36,708 bases of DNA from Desulfococcaceae bacterium HSG8 (GTDB lineage: Bacteria > Desulfobacterota > Desulfobacteria > Desulfobacterales > 4be13), in the NCBI GenBank assembly GCA_030378015.1, contig JAUCGG010000029.1, positions 1 through 36,708 of the forward strand, given 5' to 3'. The position numbers were made by a program, and so were the translations under genes. The notes under the pieces were generated by a model that was given only the letters and a program-made list of their open reading frames with translations, was not told the DNA's origin and did no database searches. This document shows, piece by piece, positions 9,206 through 22,250 of this stretch (position 1 is its first letter; the number at the start of each line of letters is the position of its first letter).

Positions 9206-9376
9206 TTTCACGTTTCACGTTTCACGTTTCACGTTTCACGTTTCACGTTTCACGCATCACGCATCACGCATCACGCATCACGCATCACGCATCACGTTTC
9301 ACGTTTCACGTTTCACGCATCACGCATCACGCATCACGCATCACGCATCACGCATCACGCATCACGCATCACGCAT
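9206..9376. repeat. 7-bp tandem array (CACGTTT / CACGCAT), about 24 copies
   Basis: Uninterrupted heptamers in blocks: CACGTTT copies, then CACGCAT, then CACGTTT, then CACGCAT. On the right the array runs into the stop codon of the phosphatase gene (TCA at 9376-9378), followed by two CAGGTTT variants inside the coding end. On the left it ends a few bases before the start codon of the kinase. Plus-strand frames through it are open only because CACGCAT happens to lack stops in 21 bp; no protein is implied. In the direction of the flanking genes every frame has a stop every 21 bp in the CACGCAT blocks. Confidence 0.95.
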
Positions 9377-11421
9377 CAGGTTTCAGGTTTCAGGCTGAAG
9401 CCCACAACCGTCACATCATCCTGTCTTTCAATATTTCCCTTGTGTTTGTTAAACACTTCAACAAGGACAGCCTGCTGGTCTCTGAAAGGCAGATTACTGT
9501 TTTCCCTGAGCAATTCCTTGAAACGTTTGTTGCCGAAACTGCTTCTCCCGAAACGGCTGCGCTCATTTTTACCCATCTGATCATGAAATCCGTCGCTTGC
9601 CAGATAGAAACGCATCTCTTTTCGGATACTGATTGTGTGCTTGGTAAAATCAGCATCCAGATCGGATCTCCGATAACCTATACTTCTTTTATTTCCTTTG
9701 ATAACATTCAGTTTGCCATCATTAATATAAATCAGCGGTATCATAGCACCTGCAAAAGTCAGAATTTTCTCTTTCAGGTTAACAAAACATAAACCCGCGT
9801 CCAGCCCGTCATCTGATGAAGTTTCCTCTGTATCCTGGTGAAGCGTAGTTTTGACGATAAAATTCAATCGCTTCAATACCTCAGCAGGATCATGACAGGC
9901 TTCGTCTTTTATAACTCTTACCAGCGCGGAATAAGCAATCATGGTCAGGAAAGCACCGGGGACACCGTGGCCTGTGCAATCAATGACTGAGATCACAAAC
10001 CCGTCTTCAAAAGTATCTGTAAAGAAGATATCGCCGCCGACAATATCCCTGGGCATCCACAGGAAAAAGCTGTCCGGAAGATAGGTTTTTATAATCTCCG
10101 GATTCGGCAGCAGGGCTTTCTGTATCATCTGGGCATATTCGAGGCTATCCACGATCTTTTCATTGGCGGCTTCAGCAGCTTTCCGGGCGATTTCTGCCTT
10201 TTCCTTGGCTGCTATGATGTTCCGCTCGTGCCGGCTCAGAATACTGACCGTAAAATAGGCGATCAGAGCCGAGGAAAGCAGACACCCTCCGCATATCACG
10301 ATTAATATGAACCTGCTGGCTTTTGTATTTTCCGAGGTATCGGTATGCAGGCGGTTTAAATCAGCCTGAACCCCGGCAACGAGCCTGTTGATCTCCTTTG
10401 TCATATTTGTGGCGACCCGGTGTGCTCCTGAGAGTTCTTTACTGATATGCCTGTTGTTGGAAATCACTTCACGCTGTATTTCAAAGATACTGCTTTCCCC
10501 TTCGTCAAACGCGGCGATGCGTTTATCTATCTCATCCACATTGCCGGCAAGGATGGGATTCCGCTGGGCCAGGGCACCTTTCCGGAACACAGCGGCAGCA
10601 TGACGAAATGACGAAAAGGATTGCTTAAATCGGCTATGAAGATCCGTAAGTGTTTCCATCCTGTCCACGTCCGAAGCAGTGATGAGCAGGCTGACCAAGA
10701 GGTTCCCCTCTGCCTTGATATCCGAGGCATACCCCATCTCCTTCATAGCGCTGTCTGTCAGTTCGGATATGGATTTTCGTATAAGCTTGCTGGTTTCTTT
10801 GTAAGATGCGTCTTTGTCGTCTGATTTTAAAAGCTTTTTAACGGACGAAATGCTGCGCCGGGCAGCGCGCTTTCCGAACAGGCTGGTCAGCGATGAAGTT
10901 CCATATAAAAGCGGACTGACGGTATCTACAAGATCATTATGGAGTTTCCGGATTTCCGTCAGAAGGGAGCGAAGGCGTGCCTTCAGCACAAGCTGCCGGC
11001 GGGTATCCCTGTTCAGGTGATATAAATTCTCGGCAATTGCTTCACTGTTCATACTGATTCGGAAAATCAGTTCCTCATCTGTACCGCTGCCCTGTTTAGC
11101 GAGAAAATAGACGCCCTCATTAATGTCATCAATCAGTTCGGTAATTCGTTCCTCAGTTCGCAGGACTTCTTCCTCATTTTCGGAAGTTATAAGAACAGGT
11201 GCGGTGGCAGCCAAGAGCGCGCTGCGTTCGGACAAACGCATTGCCGCTATCATTTCAGGAACCGTTTTGCCTGTCGTATTATCGGTGACTTTTCCCAACT
11301 GATTGAAAGAGTACAGTGCAACACCGGTGGAGAAGAGAATCAGCAAGCTGATTACAAAGAATGCCATGTAAAGCCGGACTTTTAGTGTTTTCAGCCAGTT
11401 TAAAAGCATGATCCGCAACAT
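9376..11421 (-). CDS. Membrane SpoIIE-type phosphatase with TorS-like sensor region
   Basis: A 681-residue protein. TM1 is near residues 15-37. A long helical periplasmic region follows (about 38-365) with the MRLSERSALLAATAPVLITS pattern seen near the start of TorS-type sensors. TM2 is at 371-395, then a short coiled coil (EKAEIARKAAEAANEKI) and DSLEYAQMIQKALLP leading into the PP2C/SpoIIE catalytic domain. Likely metal-binding acids are Asp464 (VGGDIFF), Asp481 (VIDCTGHGVPG) and Asp610/Asp614 (DGFHDQMG). By family, such enzymes dephosphorylate a serine/threonine on an anti-sigma antagonist or similar partner; no such partner is in the window. The upstream co-directional gene encodes a ribose-type binding protein, echoing the TorT-TorS pairing. 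No clear ribosome site precedes the ATG at 11421. Confidence 0.88.
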   Translation of the reverse strand: MLRIMLLNWLKTLKVRLYMAFFVISLLILFSTGVALYSFNQLGKVTDNTTGKTVPEMIAAMRLSERSALLAATAPVLITSENEEEVLRTEERITELIDDINEGVYFLAKQGSGTDEELIFRISMNSEAIAENLYHLNRDTRRQLVLKARLRSLLTEIRKLHNDLVDTVSPLLYGTSSLTSLFGKRAARRSISSVKKLLKSDDKDASYKETSKLIRKSISELTDSAMKEMGYASDIKAEGNLLVSLLITASDVDRMETLTDLHSRFKQSFSSFRHAAAVFRKGALAQRNPILAGNVDEIDKRIAAFDEGESSIFEIQREVISNNRHISKELSGAHRVATNMTKEINRLVAGVQADLNRLHTDTSENTKASRFILIVICGGCLLSSALIAYFTVSILSRHERNIIAAKEKAEIARKAAEAANEKIVDSLEYAQMIQKALLPNPEIIKTYLPDSFFLWMPRDIVGGDIFFTDTFEDGFVISVIDCTGHGVPGAFLTMIAYSALVRVIKDEACHDPAEVLKRLNFIVKTTLHQDTEETSSDDGLDAGLCFVNLKEKILTFAGAMIPLIYINDGKLNVIKGNKRSIGYRRSDLDADFTKHTISIRKEMRFYLASDGFHDQMGKNERSRFGRSSFGNKRFKELLRENSNLPFRDQQAVLVEVFNKHKGNIERQDDVTVVGFSLKPET

Positions 11422-11428
11422 TTTATCT

Positions 11429-11685
11429 GTCAGTTTTCAGTTTTCAGTCGGCAGTCAGCAGTTGGCAGTCATCAGTCGCCAGTCAGCAGTCAGCAGTCGC
11501 CAGTCAGCAGTCGGCAGTCAGCAGTCGCCAGTCGCCAGTCAGCAGTCAGCAGTCAGCAGTCAGCAGTCGGTTGCAACTGGCAACTGCCGACTGGCAACTG
11601 CCGATTGGCAACTGCCGATTGGCAACTGCCGACTGCCGACTGGCAACTGCCGATTGGCAACTGCCGACTGCCGACTGGCAACTGC
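11429..11685. repeat. CAGTCAGCAGTCGCCAGT / GGCAACTGCC array
   Basis: About 150 bp of CAGTCGGCAGTCAGCAG-like units followed by about 110 bp of units of the form GCCGATTGGCAACT and GCCGACTGGCAACT. The second block is largely the inverse of the first, so a long imperfect hairpin is possible. It fills the space between the binding-protein stop codon (11691) and the phosphatase start (11421). Open frames through it are repeat artefacts. Confidence 0.9.
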
Positions 11686-13407: not shown

Positions 13408-13438
13408 GCAGGGTCAAAAATTCTGAGTCTCATCACGC

Positions 13439-13558
13439 ATCACGCATCACGCATCACGCATCACGCATCACGCATCACGCATCACGCATCACGCATCACG
13501 CATCACGCATCACGCATCACGCATCACGCATCACGCATCACGCATCACGCATCACGCA
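13439..13558. repeat. CACGCAT heptamer array, about 17 copies
   Basis: Perfect tandem CACGCAT units ending directly on the stop codon (TTA at 13559-13561 on the plus strand) of the family-1 binding protein. It is the same unit as the 9206-9376 array 4 kb away. No CACGTTT variants here. It is a strong candidate for length variation between strains. Confidence 0.95.
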
Positions 13559-15022
13559 TTACAACCCCATAGAAGAACGATAAATTGCCAACTGCTTATC
13601 CCGCCCGAGTTTGTCAGTAATCTTTTCCCATTCAGCAGCAACAATATCCAGCCCCTCCTGAACACCGATCTCATGATTCAGAATCCGAACCAACTGAACT
13701 TCCAACGCCTCTGTATAATTATGAAACCCGGGGATACGGAGATCCGGTGCAACATGCGGCGAATCAAGGCTGGCTCTCAGGACAGCAAGATATTCCGAGG
13801 CGGCTCGTCTTGAAAACGCGCGTGTCCACGCGTCAATGTTTGTAAAATGAGAAAAACGATAAGGATTGACGCCTGTACCGCTGGTGACAACATCATGAAG
13901 GCTGTTCTTCGGGCTTGCATACCACATGATGTAATCCCAGGCAGCCTGTTTCTTTTTGCTGTTTTGGGGTACGCTTCCCACCCATCCGCCGAATGCAAGG
14001 AAGGGTGCTTTGTGAGGGGAATCGGCCTTGTCCCATTTGCCTGTTTTGTAATTCCATATTTCGCGGGTTCCCGGGAGGACAAAATATCCGACTTTGCCGA
14101 CCACCGCAGATTGTTCGGAATCCGCTGTAATCTGTGCGGTATCACCCCATTCTGTCGTCATCACTGCCTGTCCGCTGGCAAAGGCTTTCCGCATTTTCTG
14201 AAGGTCATAGTTCTTTGAACCCGGGGGGCAGAATTTCAGAATAGCGGCATATTCCTGAACTGCCCGCACCCATCCGGAGTTGTTGACCTGGGCCTTCATG
14301 TTGTCCGGATTGAAAAACTGCGCCCCGGGATGATCCGGATGATTGGTATAAGCCGAGGCCCGGCTGAAAACATCCCAGAATGCCTGGCCTCCCCGGGCAA
14401 ATACTTCGGTTGCGCCGTAAAGTTTTTTGCCATCCGGGCCGGTTCGCCCTGTAAAAAATTCGGCAATATCCGCGTATTGCTTCCAGGTGTCGGGCGGGGT
14501 CAGATCATATCCGTATTTTGCTTTGAACTCCTGGCGGTTTAGCGTGCCTTCAAAAAGGTCTTTTCGATAATACCCGTTGAACAAGTCACCATCAATGGTA
14601 ACCGCGGCCCATTTGTCATCCCACTGCATCAGCCGCTCACGATAGGTATCGTGGATATCATCAAAGGATTCATCTTCCGTCAGTTCTTCGGGAAGTTCTG
14701 ACAAATACGGGAAAAAATCTCCTGCCCAGGCCGGTGCATAGAAAATTACGTCGTACTTTGCTTCTTTTGCTCCCAAACTACCCATAAATTTTCCGAAAAG
14801 TTCCCCGAAAGGGTATTTCATGATTCTGACCTTCCCTCCGGTTTCTTTTTCCCATGTCTTTGCATGAGCCGTTGCCGGGCTTCCGATAGCAGGTGCATCC
14901 ATCACGCCGACAATGATTTCCACCCCGTCGAAACGTTTGTTATCGGCAGCGCCCGCACCGGGTACCCGCAAGAATAAAAGCATTACAATAAAAAACATCG
15001 CCGTAACTTTCATAACTTTCAT
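13559..15022 (-). CDS. Family-1 extracellular solute-binding protein
   Basis: A 487-residue secreted binding protein. Residues 1-25 form a signal peptide (MLLFLRVPGAGAAD). Then come VEIIVGVMDAPAIGSPATAH, HAKTWEKETGGKVRIMKYPFGELFGKFM, YDVIFYAPAWAGDFFPYLSELPEELTED and the typical PPDTWKQYADIAEFFTGR segment. In the C-terminal lobe are AFASGQAVMTTEWGDTAQI and FLAFGGWVGSVPQNSKKKQAAWDYIMWYASPK. This is the SBP_bac_1 (PF01547/PF13416) pattern of sugar or polyol binding proteins. A strong AAGGAGGAGG ribosome site precedes the ATG. Two further Met codons follow closely but this start keeps the signal peptide. No permease genes (the usual two) are present. It opens the minus-strand sensory group. The downstream binding-protein gene lies 911 bp away, separated by the composite element, so co-transcription is uncertain. 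Confidence 0.88.
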   Translation of the reverse strand: MKVMKVTAMFFIVMLLFLRVPGAGAADNKRFDGVEIIVGVMDAPAIGSPATAHAKTWEKETGGKVRIMKYPFGELFGKFMGSLGAKEAKYDVIFYAPAWAGDFFPYLSELPEELTEDESFDDIHDTYRERLMQWDDKWAAVTIDGDLFNGYYRKDLFEGTLNRQEFKAKYGYDLTPPDTWKQYADIAEFFTGRTGPDGKKLYGATEVFARGGQAFWDVFSRASAYTNHPDHPGAQFFNPDNMKAQVNNSGWVRAVQEYAAILKFCPPGSKNYDLQKMRKAFASGQAVMTTEWGDTAQITADSEQSAVVGKVGYFVLPGTREIWNYKTGKWDKADSPHKAPFLAFGGWVGSVPQNSKKKQAAWDYIMWYASPKNSLHDVVTSGTGVNPYRFSHFTNIDAWTRAFSRRAASEYLAVLRASLDSPHVAPDLRIPGFHNYTEALEVQLVRILNHEIGVQEGLDIVAAEWEKITDKLGRDKQLAIYRSSMGL

Positions 15023-15693: not shown

Positions 15694-15720
15694 GCAGAGT
15701 CATACCTCGTAATGAGAAGC

Positions 15721-15920
15721 ATACGATTTTGCTTATTTCGGCTCAGCAGTTCCGAGTCCCTGTTTCAAAGGGATTGCATTCTTCTCCGAATTGCCAAAGT
15801 CCGGTAAAACCGGACTTTGGTAATTCGGAGAAGAATACGATTTTGCTTATTTCGGATCAGCAGTTCCCGATCCCCTGTTTCAAAGGGATTGCATTCTTCT
15901 CCGAATTGCCAAAGTCCGGT
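15721..15920. repeat. Two 85-bp direct repeats around an inverted segment
   Basis: Unit 1 (15721-15805) and unit 2 (15835-15920) are nearly identical, beginning ATACGATTTTGCTTATTTCG and ending in GAATTGCCAAAGTCCGG. The 28 bp between them are an inverted copy of the unit end. A degenerate inverse fragment (GGACTTTGGCAATTCGGCG) lies at 15521-15540. The array ends six bases before the transposase remnant. Confidence 0.8.
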
Positions 15921-15925
15921 TTCAG

Positions 15926-16567
15926 TCAATTTGGATAAAGAGTATAATTCCATGAAGGATTAATATCATGTCGTTCAATATTCAAATTTTCTAAATTCTC
16001 TTTCGAAGCTTTTAAACCTTTTTCATAATGTTTCTCAACTAAACTCGCATTGACTTTCAAACCGGTTTTTGTCTTTGTTCGCAAAGTATATTTAAGAACT
16101 GTTTCATAATCGGTTAACGGAGTTCCTCTCCAATTCTTACTAATCTCACTAAATAAACGATGTTCAATCGGATTCCGCTTTGAAGCTCCGGGCGGATAGT
16201 GACATACAGTTACATTCAGTCCGTATCTTTCGCATAATATTTCCTGAAGTTTTACCTTCCGCATATGCGGTCTGTAACCATTGCTTCCTCCCGCATCTGC
16301 AACAATTAATAAATCTTTTTTGTTACGATATGTTTTAATACCATCGTTTACCCACCATCTTTCAACAGATTCAACCGCAAATTCCGGTGTGTCTCAGGAT
16401 AGTATTTTATTGCCTTCCTTCAGGAACATACCTATTGAAACATAACCTTTGTTTTCCTGTCGGTCATAAACACCGTACAAAGCAGCTTTCCCTTTGGCAT
16501 ATGTTAAAAAATCATGATCATTTGTCAGATCTGCCTCACGCTTAAATCTTGTTCCGGGTTTTTTACC
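15926..16567 (-). pseudogene. ISAzo13-like transposase remnant, N-terminus lost, internal stop
   Basis: Read on the minus strand the frame gives, in order, KKPGTRFKREADLTNDHDF, GKAALYGVYDRQENKGYVS, then an in-frame TGA (16394-16396), then DTPEFAVESVERWWVNDG, LLIVADAGGSNGYR, VTVCHYPPGASKRNPIEHR and a tail ending PSWNYTLYPN. The ADAGGSNG and HYPPGASKxNPIEHRLFSEISKNW motifs and the SWNYT end are those of ISAzo13-family DDE transposases. The first half of a full-length enzyme is absent and the internal stop breaks the rest. The only intact piece, from 16264, is a 112-residue C-terminal fragment and is unlikely to be functional. Confidence 0.82.
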
Positions 16568-17274: not shown

Positions 17275-20200
17275 ATGACCAAACCCGACACTCCGATAAG
17301 CCTGGAAAAAGACACTTACGAAATCCTTGACCACCTGGGTGAAGGGGCCTACGGGGTTGTGTGGCGCGCGCGGCGTCTGTCTGACGGGGAAACTGTCGCG
17401 ATCAAGATCGTGCAGACCTGTAATCCCGGCAACAAGGCCCCTTATTCCACCCTGATCCTGCGCAAAATCATCAGCCTGCTGAAGTGGGAGATCAGATTCC
17501 TGCAGAACATCGGTGAGGAGCGGGCCCGGAAACAGCACATCCTGCCCCTGCTGGACAGCGGGGAACACGAGGGCCGGCCCGTGATGGTGATGCTCCTCTG
17601 CGACCACAGCCTGAACCATGTTTATGTGAAACGCAGGGATGATAATGTTTTCCCCTTTGACGGCCCCCTGCTACTGCGCTGGATCGGGCAGATGGCAGAT
17701 GCCCTGGCCGGGCTTCACAGTGCCCCGCAGGAAGAAGGAATCTTTATCCACCGGGATCTGAAGTTCGTCAATATCCTGATGCGGGATGATGACCTGTGGC
17801 TCTGTGATTTCGGCACGGTCAAGATTATCGAGCATGAATTCACCACCTCCCTGGCAGGAACCCTGGAATGGGGCGCGCCCGAGATGTTCATCCCTGCGGA
17901 AATCATAAATGACAAGCCGCAGTACGAGCTTACCCCCGCGGCCGATATGTATGCCCTGGGGCTGGTTGTCCACGCGCTGATTACCGGGAATATTCCCAAG
18001 GCCCAGGCCGTGATCGGGAATCAGACAAGGGCAAACGGGAAGCCCCTGCCCGGTGCGGAAAAATACTTCGGAACCATCGGGGGACTGGGCGACCAGGAGA
18101 GAACCATCCTGCAGCGGGATATCCGCCGCCTCATCGCACCGGGGGAAACCCTGGTTCAGCAGGAGTTCCTTGCCCTGCCCGATACAGAAGCTGTCATAAG
18201 GGGAATTGCCCGGCTCACGGAAAACCTCCTGGCTCCCCGTGCGGAAGACCGGCCCTCCGCGCAGGCTGTCACGGGACAGGCCCGGGAAATGAGAGATTTT
18301 CTCGCCCCGGTTCTGTCCGGTCTGGAAATACAGGTTCCCGGGAAAACAGCTTTGGGAAAAACCTGCACCGTCACCGTCACTGCTCATGGCCGGGGACTGC
18401 CGGGACACGGGAAATGGCTCCATTCCGATGTTTCGGGAAAACGGGCTGATGCTGTCATCCGCAAGGCCGGGAAGGACGCGTGGGAGCTGACCCTGCCCCG
18501 GTTTGAAAACACCGGGGAATATGACATCCGGGTTTTCGCATTTGTAAACCAGGAAGAGACCGAGGCGCGAGAAAAGGTAAAGGTCTCCGCAACCCCGGAT
18601 CAGTTGTGGGCGCGTAAGCTTTATGCCGAGGCCCTGACCCTGTCACCGGAGCGGACAGAATGGCTGGATTTTCTTGAAAAAAAGGCAAAAAGAAAATCCG
18701 GGCGCCGGGAATACCTGGGAATCCTGGAAAAGATCCGGGAGGCTCATAAGCACAGGAAGCCGTATCCGGATATTGAACGCCGCTACTGGCAGCAGATCAC
18801 TTTGCAGGAGGAAGAGCATAAGAAGCCCGGGAAAGGGATTCCCCTCCGGTGGCTGGCTGCTTTCCTGATGGTTATTCTGGTTGCGGCCGCGGGTGCGGGG
18901 ATATATAAAAAATTCATGGGGAGCAGGGGAAAAACCCCGTCCGTTACCACCACGACAACCGTTCCTGTGACCTCGCCCATAGAATCCCTGCTGGCAGAGG
19001 CACGGGAACAGATGGAAAAAAAACGCCTCACAAACCCCGAGGGCGATAATGCTTATGAAACCTGCCAGGAGATTCTTTCCGCTGACCCCGGGAATGAGAA
19101 AGCTTCGCAGATGATCCGGGACATCGCTGACCGGTATTCCGAATGGGGAGAATCGTCCCTGGACAAGTCCCGGTATGACAAGGCCCTGTCTTATGCGGAA
19201 AGCGCGCTGAAGGTGATCCCGGGGTATCCCCGTGCGCTTGCGGTGACTGAGGATGCCGCGGCAGCTTACATCCGCCTGGGAAAAGATGAACTGGCAGGGG
19301 GAAATATAAAGGATGCCCTCGCGTACAGGGAAAAGATACGGGAACTGTTCGCCCAATATGAACTCACGGATGAAACCGGGGAGTGGCAGGATTTTGATCA
19401 GCAGCTTACCGCTGAAACGGACAAAACAGGGAAAATCGCATCCCTGGTGACCAGGGCACGGAACCAGGTGAGGAAAAACCGCCTCACAAGGCCCGCGGGT
19501 GACAATGCTTATGAGACCTGCCGGGAAATTTTCGCCCTGGACAGCGGGAACAGGGATGCCGGGGAGGTGATGGAAGACATTATCGCCAGACTGGTATCAA
19601 AGGGACTTATTGAAAAAGCCCTTGATATCCTTGAAGCCAGCAGGGAACTCGCGGACAGGCAGCCCCGTACACGGGAAATGCAGGGTATCCTGCGCTCGGT
19701 TACGGAGCATTATGCCGCGCTCGGGAGAAAGGCTTCGGAATCCGGGGATGCGGGCAGGGCAGGGGATTACCTGGAAAAAGCCAGGGCCTTTGCGCGAAAA
19801 TATGATGTGGCCGGTTCCGAGGAACTGCTGCGGGAAACCGAGGAAAAGATAAACGCGGATGCCGGGAAAAAGGAGAGAGAGAAGAAGATTGCCAGGTTTG
19901 TAAAAAAAGGGAAAAGGGCCGTAAGGCAGAAAAGATACGATGATGCCGTGCCTTATGCAACAGAGGCACTGGAGTTGTCCCCGGGCCATCCCGATGCCGT
20001 AAAACTGCTCCGGGATGTTGTGAAATATTACATCAGGAAGGGAGACGCACAACTGGATAAGGGGAATGCGGAAAAGGCACGGGAATATAATGAGAAAATC
20101 TGGGAACTGTTCAGCCTGTATGATTTGGAGGATAAAACCGGGGCATGGAAGGATTTTGAGAAAAATATCGCGAAAACAGAGAAGAACAGGGATAATATCA

Positions 20201-21003
20201 GAACCCTGCTGAAGACTGCTGAGAAGCATCTGAATAACGGGCAGTTGGACAGAGCATATAAAGCCTGCCAAAAGGTGCTTTCTGCTGATCCCGGGAATAA
20301 AAAGGTGAAAAAGGTGATGGGGAAAATTGCCGGTGAATACCTGGCCCTGGCAAACGGGGCTGTCGGGGACAGGGAAAAGGCAAAGGAGTATGTTAAAAAG
20401 GGGCTGGGTGTTGACGGGGGGCATAAGAAACTGCTGGAGTTGAAGAAGGAACTGGGGGATATTAAAAAGGGGCCGAATGTTGACGGCGGTCATAAGAAGC
20501 TGCCGGGGAATATTATCAGGCTCAGAAGCCAGCCCCGGACGCTTTCAGATGAGGATGTTAAAAAGATGCTGGCAAAGCATAATTTCTTTGACAGCGATTG
20601 GAACAAATCCGGTGATTTTGAAAATGATTTTGTGAAAAGCAGTGACGGGAAAACTGTGACAGACAGGAGAACAGGGCTTATGTGGCAGCAGTCCGGGTCT
20701 GATGACTCTATGACATATAAAAATGCACAGGCTTATGTCAGAAAGCTTAACAGCAGGCAGTTTGCCGGATATTCTGACTGGCGGCTTCCCACCGTTGAAA
20801 AACTGGCATCCCTTCTGAAAAGCAAAGAGGTGAACGGTCTTTACATTGATCCTGTATTTGACAGAGAACAGTTTTGGTGCTGGAGTTCTGATAAAAGGTC
20901 GTCGGGGTCGGCGTGGGGCGTCAATTTCTACAGCGGCAACGTCAGTTGGGACTACCTGGAGTACAACTTCTATGTCCGAGGTGTTCGCTCCAGACAATAT
21001 TGA
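17275..21003 (+). CDS. Membrane Ser/Thr protein kinase with TPRs and C-terminal DUF1566 domain
   Basis: 1242 residues. The N-terminal Hanks-type kinase domain has the glycine loop GEGAYGVV, Lys44 (VAIKIV), HRDLKFVN with Asp161 and Asn166, and DFG Asp178, so it should be active. An Ig-like beta segment (about 350-440) follows, a single TM is at 526-546, then a Thr/Pro linker and several TPR-like repeats. Two longer blocks carry RLTxPxGDNAYETC and one AVPYATEALELSPGHPDAV. A VDGGHKKL duplication lies near 1045 and 1068. The C-terminal DUF1566/Lcl-type domain (about 1123-1242) has TDRRTGLMWQQ and YSDWRLPTVEKLASLL. The last 40 residues use codons unlike the rest (many NNC/NNG). With the TM, the TPR and DUF1566 parts would lie outside the cytoplasm. 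It is flanked by 31-bp direct repeats. The natural substrates are not shown. Confidence 0.93.
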   Translation: MTKPDTPISLEKDTYEILDHLGEGAYGVVWRARRLSDGETVAIKIVQTCNPGNKAPYSTLILRKIISLLKWEIRFLQNIGEERARKQHILPLLDSGEHEGRPVMVMLLCDHSLNHVYVKRRDDNVFPFDGPLLLRWIGQMADALAGLHSAPQEEGIFIHRDLKFVNILMRDDDLWLCDFGTVKIIEHEFTTSLAGTLEWGAPEMFIPAEIINDKPQYELTPAADMYALGLVVHALITGNIPKAQAVIGNQTRANGKPLPGAEKYFGTIGGLGDQERTILQRDIRRLIAPGETLVQQEFLALPDTEAVIRGIARLTENLLAPRAEDRPSAQAVTGQAREMRDFLAPVLSGLEIQVPGKTALGKTCTVTVTAHGRGLPGHGKWLHSDVSGKRADAVIRKAGKDAWELTLPRFENTGEYDIRVFAFVNQEETEAREKVKVSATPDQLWARKLYAEALTLSPERTEWLDFLEKKAKRKSGRREYLGILEKIREAHKHRKPYPDIERRYWQQITLQEEEHKKPGKGIPLRWLAAFLMVILVAAAGAGIYKKFMGSRGKTPSVTTTTTVPVTSPIESLLAEAREQMEKKRLTNPEGDNAYETCQEILSADPGNEKASQMIRDIADRYSEWGESSLDKSRYDKALSYAESALKVIPGYPRALAVTEDAAAAYIRLGKDELAGGNIKDALAYREKIRELFAQYELTDETGEWQDFDQQLTAETDKTGKIASLVTRARNQVRKNRLTRPAGDNAYETCREIFALDSGNRDAGEVMEDIIARLVSKGLIEKALDILEASRELADRQPRTREMQGILRSVTEHYAALGRKASESGDAGRAGDYLEKARAFARKYDVAGSEELLRETEEKINADAGKKEREKKIARFVKKGKRAVRQKRYDDAVPYATEALELSPGHPDAVKLLRDVVKYYIRKGDAQLDKGNAEKAREYNEKIWELFSLYDLEDKTGAWKDFEKNIAKTEKNRDNIRTLLKTAEKHLNNGQLDRAYKACQKVLSADPGNKKVKKVMGKIAGEYLALANGAVGDREKAKEYVKKGLGVDGGHKKLLELKKELGDIKKGPNVDGGHKKLPGNIIRLRSQPRTLSDEDVKKMLAKHNFFDSDWNKSGDFENDFVKSSDGKTVTDRRTGLMWQQSGSDDSMTYKNAQAYVRKLNSRQFAGYSDWRLPTVEKLASLLKSKEVNGLYIDPVFDREQFWCWSSDKRSSGSAWGVNFYSGNVSWDYLEYNFYVRGVRSRQY
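20881..21000 (+). other. Candidate diversity-generating variable region
   Basis: The 3' end of the kinase gene encodes residues 1203-1242, from WSSD to the end. It contains the DUF1566 pattern WSS ... AWGVNFYSGNVSW ... FYVRGVRS. Exposed positions use TAC, AGC, GGC, AAC, GAC and GAG codons, as expected if AAC or similar codons of a template were changed at adenines. The stretch is richer in G and C than the 250 bp before it. No reverse transcriptase or template repeat was seen in the window, so a template would have to be elsewhere. Confidence 0.4.
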
Positions 21004-21078
21004 CCATTTGACTATTTGAATTATTTGATGATTTGGATTATTTGATTCTTTGGTTCTTTGGTTCTTTAATTCTTTTGG
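21004..21078. repeat. T-rich degenerate short repeats after the kinase gene
   Basis: Imperfect 8-9-bp units such as TTTGATTC, TTATTTGA and TTCTTTGG from the stop codon onwards. There is no stable hairpin, so not a clear terminator. From 21079 to 21186 no feature was recognised beyond a GGGGCGTAGCCCCG hairpin at about 21077. Confidence 0.6.
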
Positions 21079-21186: not shown

Positions 21187-21217
21187 TTTCCTTTTCTTAT
21201 CCCTTTTCCCTGTAGTT
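21187..21217. repeat. 31-bp direct repeat, right copy, after the kinase gene
   Basis: TTTCCTTTTCTTATCCC followed by TTTTCCCTGTAGTT, one mismatch from the copy at 17213-17243. It is preceded by a purine-rich stretch (GGAAAAAGTATAAGAAAGGG) that can pair with it. Confidence 0.75.
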
Positions 21218-21226
21218 GTAATAACA

Positions 21227-21441
21227 TACCCCGAAGGGGTTAGATAATCTAGCCCAGGGTCAGCGAAGCGCCACCCTGGGGAAATGAATCCCTAATAACG
21301 TTTTTTCCCTGAAAGGGATACATAATTTGCGTGTATTATTATGTATCCCCTTCAGGGAAAAATATTTTTTGTTTCTCATTCCCCAGGGTGGCGCTTCGCT
21401 GACCCTGGGCTATATTATCCAACCCCTTCGGGGTATTGCAT
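21227..21441. mobile_element. 215-bp palindromic element, copy 1
   Basis: Starts TACCCCGAAGGGGTTA and ends TAACCCCTTCGGGGTA. Inside lie AGCCCAGGGTCAGCGAAGCG, CCACCCTGGGG and CCCTGAAAGGGATACATAAT, each matched by an inverted copy in the right half. It is a nearly full-length imperfect palindrome. Two further copies are at 21490 and 23595. Confidence 0.8.
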
Positions 21442-21489
21442 GCCGATTAATGATTAATGCCTTTAATTGCTTACAAATTAAACGGAAAA

Positions 21490-21703
21490 TACCCCGAAGG
21501 GGTTAAATAATATAGCCCAGGGTAAGCGAAGCGCCACCCTGGGGAAATAAACCCCTAATAATGTTTTTTCCCTGAAAGGGATACATAATTTGCGTGTATT
21601 ATTATGTATCCCCTTCAGGGAAAATATTTTTTGTTTCTCATTCCCCAGGGTGGCGCTTCGCTGACCCTGGGCTAGATTATCTAACCCCTTCGGGGTATTG
21701 CAT
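21490..21703. mobile_element. 215-bp palindromic element, copy 2
   Basis: Nearly identical to copies 1 and 3. It is preceded by ACAAATTAAACGGAAAA, like copy 3 (GCAAATTAAACGGAAAA), and followed by TTGCATG. No protein is implied. Confidence 0.8.
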
Positions 21704-21795
21704 GCGCGAGGTTCGGATTTGTCAATCCGAACCGAGCAGGAGAGGCACCCGTGATGCTCGCGGGGGATTGGCAAATCCCCCGCATGTGCGGGATT

Positions 21796-21897
21796 CTGTA
21801 GGGTGGGGCTTGCCCCACCGACTTTCATTAATGTTCATATCGGATATAACCGAAATGGCGATATACTGATAATGGCGGGGCAAGCCCCACCCTACAG
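21796..21897. repeat. GTAGGGTGGGGCTTGCCCC hairpin element, copy 1
   Basis: CTGTAGGGTGGGGCTTGCCC on the left and its inverse on the right enclose a conserved loop with GTTCATATCGGATATAACCG and AATGGCGATATACTGATAAT. The loop is as well conserved as the stem across the four copies (21796, 22054, 23270, 23434), so the whole unit has been duplicated. The preceding 21710-21795 is a copy of the dispersed cluster also seen at 16715. Confidence 0.8.
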
Positions 21898-21916
21898 AAC
21901 TGCTGAGTCGCCCCGG

Positions 21917-22250
21917 TAAGACCTCCGAGGTTTTCGAAATATCGCCTGGAGAAGAAGTGTGAAATAGGCGAAACCTCGGAGGTCTGGTTTCGCCCCGGAG
22001 CGGGCTCGGAAAAGACCTCCGAGGTTTTCGAAATATCGCCCGGAGAAGAGGTTCTGTAGGGTGGGGCTTGCCCCACCGACTTTAATTAATGTTCATATCG
22101 GATATAACCGAAATGGCGATATACTGATAATGGTGGGGCAAGCCACACCCTACTGAGTCGCCCCGGTAAGACCTCCGAGGTTTTCGAAATATCGCCCGGA
22201 GAAGAAGTGTGAGACAGCCGAAACCTCGGAGGTCTGGTTTCGTCTGCTGA
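21917..22250. repeat. AAGACCTCCGAGGTTTTCG repeats around hairpin copy 2
   Basis: The module AAGACCTCCGAGGTTTTCG followed by AAATATCGCC occurs at about 21919, 22012, 22169 and again at 23393. Inverse CGAAACCTCGGAGGTCTGG copies follow the first and third. Hairpin copy 2 (22054-22154) is embedded. The mosaic ends about 40 bp before the antitoxin-like gene. Confidence 0.75.

Follow-up and report, generated by a model that had tools for sequence, protein, structure and literature searches.

The window, a stretch of 36,708 nucleotides from Desulfococcaceae bacterium HSG8, is contig C203 of a 6.01-Mb assembly of 389 contigs that is 81.5% complete. On its forward strand lies a gene whose product joins a Ser/Thr kinase domain to a transmembrane segment, TPR repeats and a DUF1566 domain, and whose 3' end carries a candidate variable region (VR) of a diversity-generating retroelement (DGR). 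The features of this gene are as follows.

17275..21003, + strand: variable-protein gene (1242 aa), Ser/Thr kinase, transmembrane segment, TPR and DUF1566 (ORF and Pfam)
17317..18033, + strand: protein kinase domain, residues 15-253 (PF00069, E 7e-28)
18850..18906, + strand: transmembrane segment WLAAFLMVILVAAAGAGIY, residues 526-544 (hydropathy maximum 2.17)
20491..21070, + strand: receptor cassette in common with a caspase gene on contig C223 (30-nt identity steps; homology ends on both sides)
20650..20988, + strand: Lcl_C/DUF1566 domain, PF07603, residues 1126-1238 (Pfam, E 4e-26)
20890..20916, + strand: conserved 5' flank of the variable region, GATAAAAGGTCGTCGGGGTCGGCGTGG (paralog comparison)
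20917..20970, + strand: putative VR core, 54 nt, 18 codons, residues 1215-1232 (changes relative to the inferred template)
20971..21003, + strand: invariant 3' block TATGTCCGAGGTGTTCGCTCCAGACAATATTGA, candidate homing initiation site, IMH-like (paralog sites)

The VAIK (41), HRDLKxxN (159) and DFG (178) motifs of the kinase are all intact. The initial annotation had called the product a sensor kinase; it is a kinase, and is better described as a Hanks-type Ser/Thr kinase with one transmembrane segment. The half of the protein beyond that segment is probably outside the cytoplasm, a topology predicted from sequence. Pfam places the TPR repeats between the segment and DUF1566, the last domain, and so confirms (PF07603, residues 1126-1238) the earlier placement of DUF1566 at the gene end. 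A single-sequence structure model was unusable (mean pLDDT 38). The variable codons that had been named are present as listed, and the G/C shift proposed for the last 40 codons holds at third positions only: overall GC is 52.5% against 54.3% for the gene, while third-position GC is 85% against 63%, since almost every variable codon is NNC or NNT.

Neither a reverse transcriptase (RT) nor a template (TR) lies in the window, as had been stated. A full adenine-tolerant self-scan of the window for a template copy, on all strands, returned only tandem heptamers and imperfect inverted repeats. The heptamer arrays (TCACGCA, CAGTCAG, CATCACG) occupy positions 9250-9378, 11445-11568 and 13431-13559, with up to 18 copies that are 82-100% identical, and sit between genes or at gene edges; the arrays at 9250-9378 and 13431-13559 are one heptamer unit in different phase. 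At 15714-16264, a 115-bp unit is repeated 1.8 times beside a fragment of a Rhodopirellula-type DDE transposase. An AT-rich degenerate repeat of ATTTGATT units follows the stop codon of the kinase gene directly, at 21006-21075, and other DUF1566 VR genes, both here and in further genomes, are followed by similar ATTTG-rich stretches. The space separating the kinase gene from its downstream neighbour is densely set, at 21200-22250, with long repeated and inverted-repeat intergenic elements, for example CCCAGGGTGGCGCTTCGCTGACCCTGGG.

The end of the kinase gene is one member of a dispersed set. A query of positions 20851-21010 matched 11 further places in the same genome, and seven DUF1566 ends besides that of the window carry its 3' block. 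The core of this block, CCGAGGTGTTCGCTCC, occurs with 0-1 mismatch at eight genome sites, the window included (C203, the window; C223; C144, two in one protein; C128; C127; C293; C162), and the reversed control gave 0. The block is identical in C203, C223 and C162, the last of which could not otherwise be aligned here without gaps. Among the closest copies the codons follow the pattern TGG-xxC-GTC-xxT-TTC-xxC-xxC-GGC-xxC-GTC-xxT-TGG-xxC-xxC-CTG-GAx-xxC-xxC-xxC-TAT-GTC-CGA, with differences at the x positions. Two properties of DGR variable regions are thus found here: a target domain with a predicted C-type-lectin-like fold at the 3' end of the gene, DUF1566 being last, and a conserved 3' block, putatively IMH-like, that is common to the targets of one template and present at the eight sites. 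Two more groups of such ends, C253/C331 and C191 (twice), each have their own 3' block and so perhaps their own templates. The VRs of C127 (L061) and C293 (L063) are the same letter for letter, and C293 has a stop codon in the 3' block; the two may have arisen by gene duplication, or one may come from a variant strain within the bin.

The tip is carried by proteins of diverse architecture, among them enzymes of cell-death and immune type. On C223 it belongs to a caspase-PEGA protein, as it does on C331, there with the second template type; on C144 to a TIR protein with two DUF1566 domains; on C162 to a GIY-YIG-type (T5orf172) protein; on C127 to a short protein with a hydrophobic N-terminal stretch; and on C128 to a protein of 1064 aa that includes an FGE domain and is encoded next to an AAA gene, read here as MoxR-like. 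G044, a genome from a different family of the order, also encodes a kinase-DUF1566 protein with a similar tip (on C141). C203 and C223 are homologous over only about 580 bp around the domain, and this stretch is therefore a movable receptor cassette.

Elevated variation of the VR is present among paralogs within this one genome. The window and its nearest paralog, C223, differ at 13/54 positions in 20917-20970 as compared with 29/315 upstream in the DUF1566 domain (p = 0.004), and at 0/33 in the 3' block. Of the 13 VR differences, 12 fall at codon positions 1-2 and C is involved in none; upstream, by contrast, 13 of the 29 differences fall at codon position 3. The template inferred from the genome's own copies reads AAC GTC AAT TTC AAC AAC GGC AAC GTC AAT TGG AAC AAC CTG GAA AAC AAC AAC. 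All departures of the window VR from it are at adenines (11/24 adenines changed, 0/30 other bases), which supports the initial designation of 20881-21000 as a DGR variable region, and C223 behaves likewise (13/24 and 0/30). Older copies show 2-6 non-adenine changes, with 6/30 in each of C128, C127 and C144b.

This inferred template was built from the copies themselves and is partly circular, and therefore other genomes were used for tests. The VRs of two sister genera (G002 and G003) yielded a template by the same procedure, and 389 genomes of the order were searched with it. Its best match, 96% identical, is a TR on contig C414 of G086, in another family of the order, located between a bAvd gene and a DGR RT (GLPIGNLTSQFFANLYL...YVDD). 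A DUF1566 VR lies 0.8 kb upstream of that TR and differs from it at 13 positions, all adenines (13:0). Equivalent loci in G133 and G156 gave adenine to non-adenine changes of 18:0, 13:0, 18:0 and 16:0. The DUF1566-type DGR RTs of G086 (C414, L251) and G133 (C129, L252) match MutS domain I at their C-termini (E 1e-8 and 2e-7), which is to our knowledge unusual for a DGR RT.

The G086 TR, which is not the cognate TR of the window, reproduces the adenine pattern. Against its first 31 nt, with one synonymous base ahead of the VR left out, the window VR has 4/10 adenines changed and 0/20 other bases; for C203, C223 and C331 pooled the figures are 16/30 and 0/60 (p = 7e-10), and third positions of variable codons are changed in 0/15. 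Adenine-confined differences, a third property of DGR variable regions, are thus seen both with the inferred template and with a real TR of another genome.

The same motif recurs in viral sequences. A 36-nt TR pattern, GCNTGGAAYGTSAAYTTCAACAAYGGCAAYGWSAAY, had 47 exact matches in 2.9 million viral contigs, many of them close relatives of each other, so that the independent cases are fewer. An SQ-motif DGR RT lies 698-738 nt downstream in 39/47 of these matches and an adenine-mutated VR is present for 40/47; the two matches with neither RT motif nor VR are on stretches of 1.2-1.3 kb. The pattern is a real DGR TR in at least 45/47 of the viral contigs, and the template motif predicted for the window VR is likewise a real TR in complete cis DGRs of the same order. 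A viral contig from a phage (L255) carries two DUF1566 targets, an Avd-like ORF, a DGR RT and a TR reading FYVNMNNGNVNKNNANNQLRARPVRR. For the second half of the VR (GTC AAT TGG AAC AAC CTG GAA...), an exact template was not found in any genome, the exact 3' anchor had 0 matches in the viral and genome collections, and the inferred TR was not found in plasmid and phage records. Of the DGR loci scanned in genome contigs, 45 have FGE-type or other template pairs, none recognisably DUF1566.

A near-copy of 20881-21000 differing almost only at adenines and lying beside a DGR RT, which the initial annotation had named as the sign to look for in the genome, was not found in the 81.5%-complete assembly. 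BLAST with the inferred templates and an anchor search detected no TR, and no RT with the G..SQ motif of DGRs was detected; every RT motif that could be read is of the G..SP type. The RTs concerned are group-II-intron-like, except one adjoining two cas2-like genes (L010, G000:C20), an RVT_1 protein with a QGSVLSP motif and a repetitive N-terminus upstream. An RT fragment on C600 of G002 that is DGR-like by alignment was rejected as a candidate, since it closely resembles this Cas2-linked C20 RT. A complete DGR is present in a genome of the same family, Desulfobacterales bacterium HSG2 (G004), on C263 (L055 / L114), which means that the family can carry DGRs. That locus comprises an HRDC protein, bAvd, an RT and a TR, and caspase-type genes there carry at least three FGE-sulfatase VRs; its template belongs to the FGE-sulfatase genes and was rejected as the source for the window VR.

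We conclude, with a probability of about 0.88, that 20917-20970 is the VR of a DGR acting from elsewhere. The absence of a TR and of a DGR RT from the incomplete assembly is why the region is best read as a remote target, recently diversified; the initial proposal of a remote target gains support from the adenine-only variation, the paralog set and the real TRs of other genomes. That proposal was to fall if the genome held neither a template copy nor a DGR RT and if variation here were not elevated among relatives. The former is literally true of the assembly, and the latter is contradicted by the paralogs. Most simply, the TR and RT of the window VR are in the missing 18.5% of the genome; they may instead have been lost, or be on an element left out of the bin.

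A loss of this kind is the substance of the first alternative, in which the block was made by a DGR since lost from the lineage and the tips are frozen, drifting like ordinary sequence. The lack of an RT or TR in the assembly fits such a history, as do the non-adenine changes in several copies, the stop codon of C293, and the two relatives G002 (94% complete) and G001 (one contig), in which DUF1566 ends occur, some of them VR-like, and a DGR RT was not found. Drift is difficult to reconcile with the comparison of C203 and C223, which have 0/63 differences at the non-adenine sites of the VR and the 3' block as compared with 29/315 in the cassette (p = 0.0075). With 9% divergence between the cassettes, this implies that the VRs were probably re-copied from one source after the cassettes diverged, as mutagenic homing does. 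The pattern argues for recent, though not necessarily present, DGR activity, and the 18.5% of the genome that is unseen also weakens the case from absence. We consider a lost DGR unlikely.

It is far less probable that no DGR was involved and that a paralog family acquired hypervariable surface codons by positive selection and cassette shuffling. Such a reading would suit a cassette common to unrelated effectors and an assembly in which DGR machinery was not found, but selection on amino acids would not spare third positions (0/15), nor would it spare every non-adenine base (0/60) relative to a template known only from another genome, and the motif is a DGR TR wherever it is found with context. 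Diversification by another RT of the genome, group II intron or Cas-linked, can be practically dismissed: these are the sole RTs seen in the assembly, and among them the C20 RT comes nearest to a DGR RT (32% identity), but the motif is of the QG..SP type with G..SQ absent, the C20 RT adjoins two cas2-like genes, and a template copy was not found anywhere in the assembly.

Under the preferred reading of a remotely acting DGR, its RT would copy a template RNA with a coding sense of about SAW-NVNFNNGNVNWNNLENNN-YVRGVRS, misincorporating at adenines, and the cDNA would replace the 3' end of the DUF1566 gene in trans, starting at the conserved 3' block. In the resulting receptor tip, the scaffold would stay fixed and about a dozen residues would be randomised. 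These residues may bind a ligand outside the cytoplasm and binding may in turn regulate the kinase, possibly in an alarm or defence role. Since several effectors have this tip in common, a single DGR would supply variation to a group of putative alarm or conflict proteins. We advance more tentatively, at somewhat less than even odds, the fuller proposal that one trans-only DGR serves dispersed alarm proteins through the cassette of about 580 bp, whose copies a single template would keep interchangeable. If so, the effector set would be an innate-receptor repertoire sharing one hypermutation source.

What began as a hint in the raw letters is now a delimited variable region for which a template is predicted. 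Variable copies alone sufficed to infer a template that other genomes were then found to contain. The template motif can serve as bait for the missing retroelement in long-read assemblies, with TGGAAYGTSAAYTTCAACAAYGGCAAY and TATGTCCGAGGTGTTCGCTCC as search sequences. The kinase receptor, together with the caspase, TIR and nuclease-like proteins with the same tip, joins the conflict-type DGR targets. Kinases, caspases and TIR proteins are already known as DGR targets; in our partial coverage of the literature, we found no description of a DUF1566 version of this set in this bacterial group.

Few DGR target domains are as common as DUF1566 (PMC4159848, PMC6642488). The DUF1566 DGRs of microbiomes and prophages share with the window the target domain and the TR motif AWNVNFNNGNVNNN (PMC4159848, PMC6642488; L251-L253, L255, L256-L302), but they act in cis, with the RT beside the target, and no kinase is among the targets seen. 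In Treponema denticola, VR genes lie at a distance from the core module, and isolates lacking a complete DGR retain target genes (PMC4891356). The window resembles it in both respects, that is, in remote VR genes and in target genes without a complete DGR in the assembly, with the difference that several T. denticola isolates allowed each VR to be matched to a TR (PMC4891356). Multicellular bacteria such as Thiohalocapsa PB-PSB1 have DGR-diversified putative antigen sensors (PMC10907252), part of a wider set of systems (PMC7159879). Template match and read variation were shown for the PB-PSB1 type, in a paper without mention of DUF1566; as here, targets are fused to kinase, TIR and other conflict-system domains, and some are diversified in trans, with RT and TR elsewhere in the genome (PMC10907252). 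The DGR-diversified CLec proteins of cyanobacteria include Ser/Thr kinases, orthocaspases and TIR proteins with remote targets (PMC7517822). The window departs from this set in that its domain is Lcl_C/DUF1566, its host is of the Desulfobacterales type and its own RT and TR were not found in the assembly, and agrees with it in having a diversified C-terminal lectin-type domain on an N-terminal Ser/Thr kinase, caspase or TIR, with paralogs dispersed over the genome and VRs at gene 3' ends (PMC7517822).
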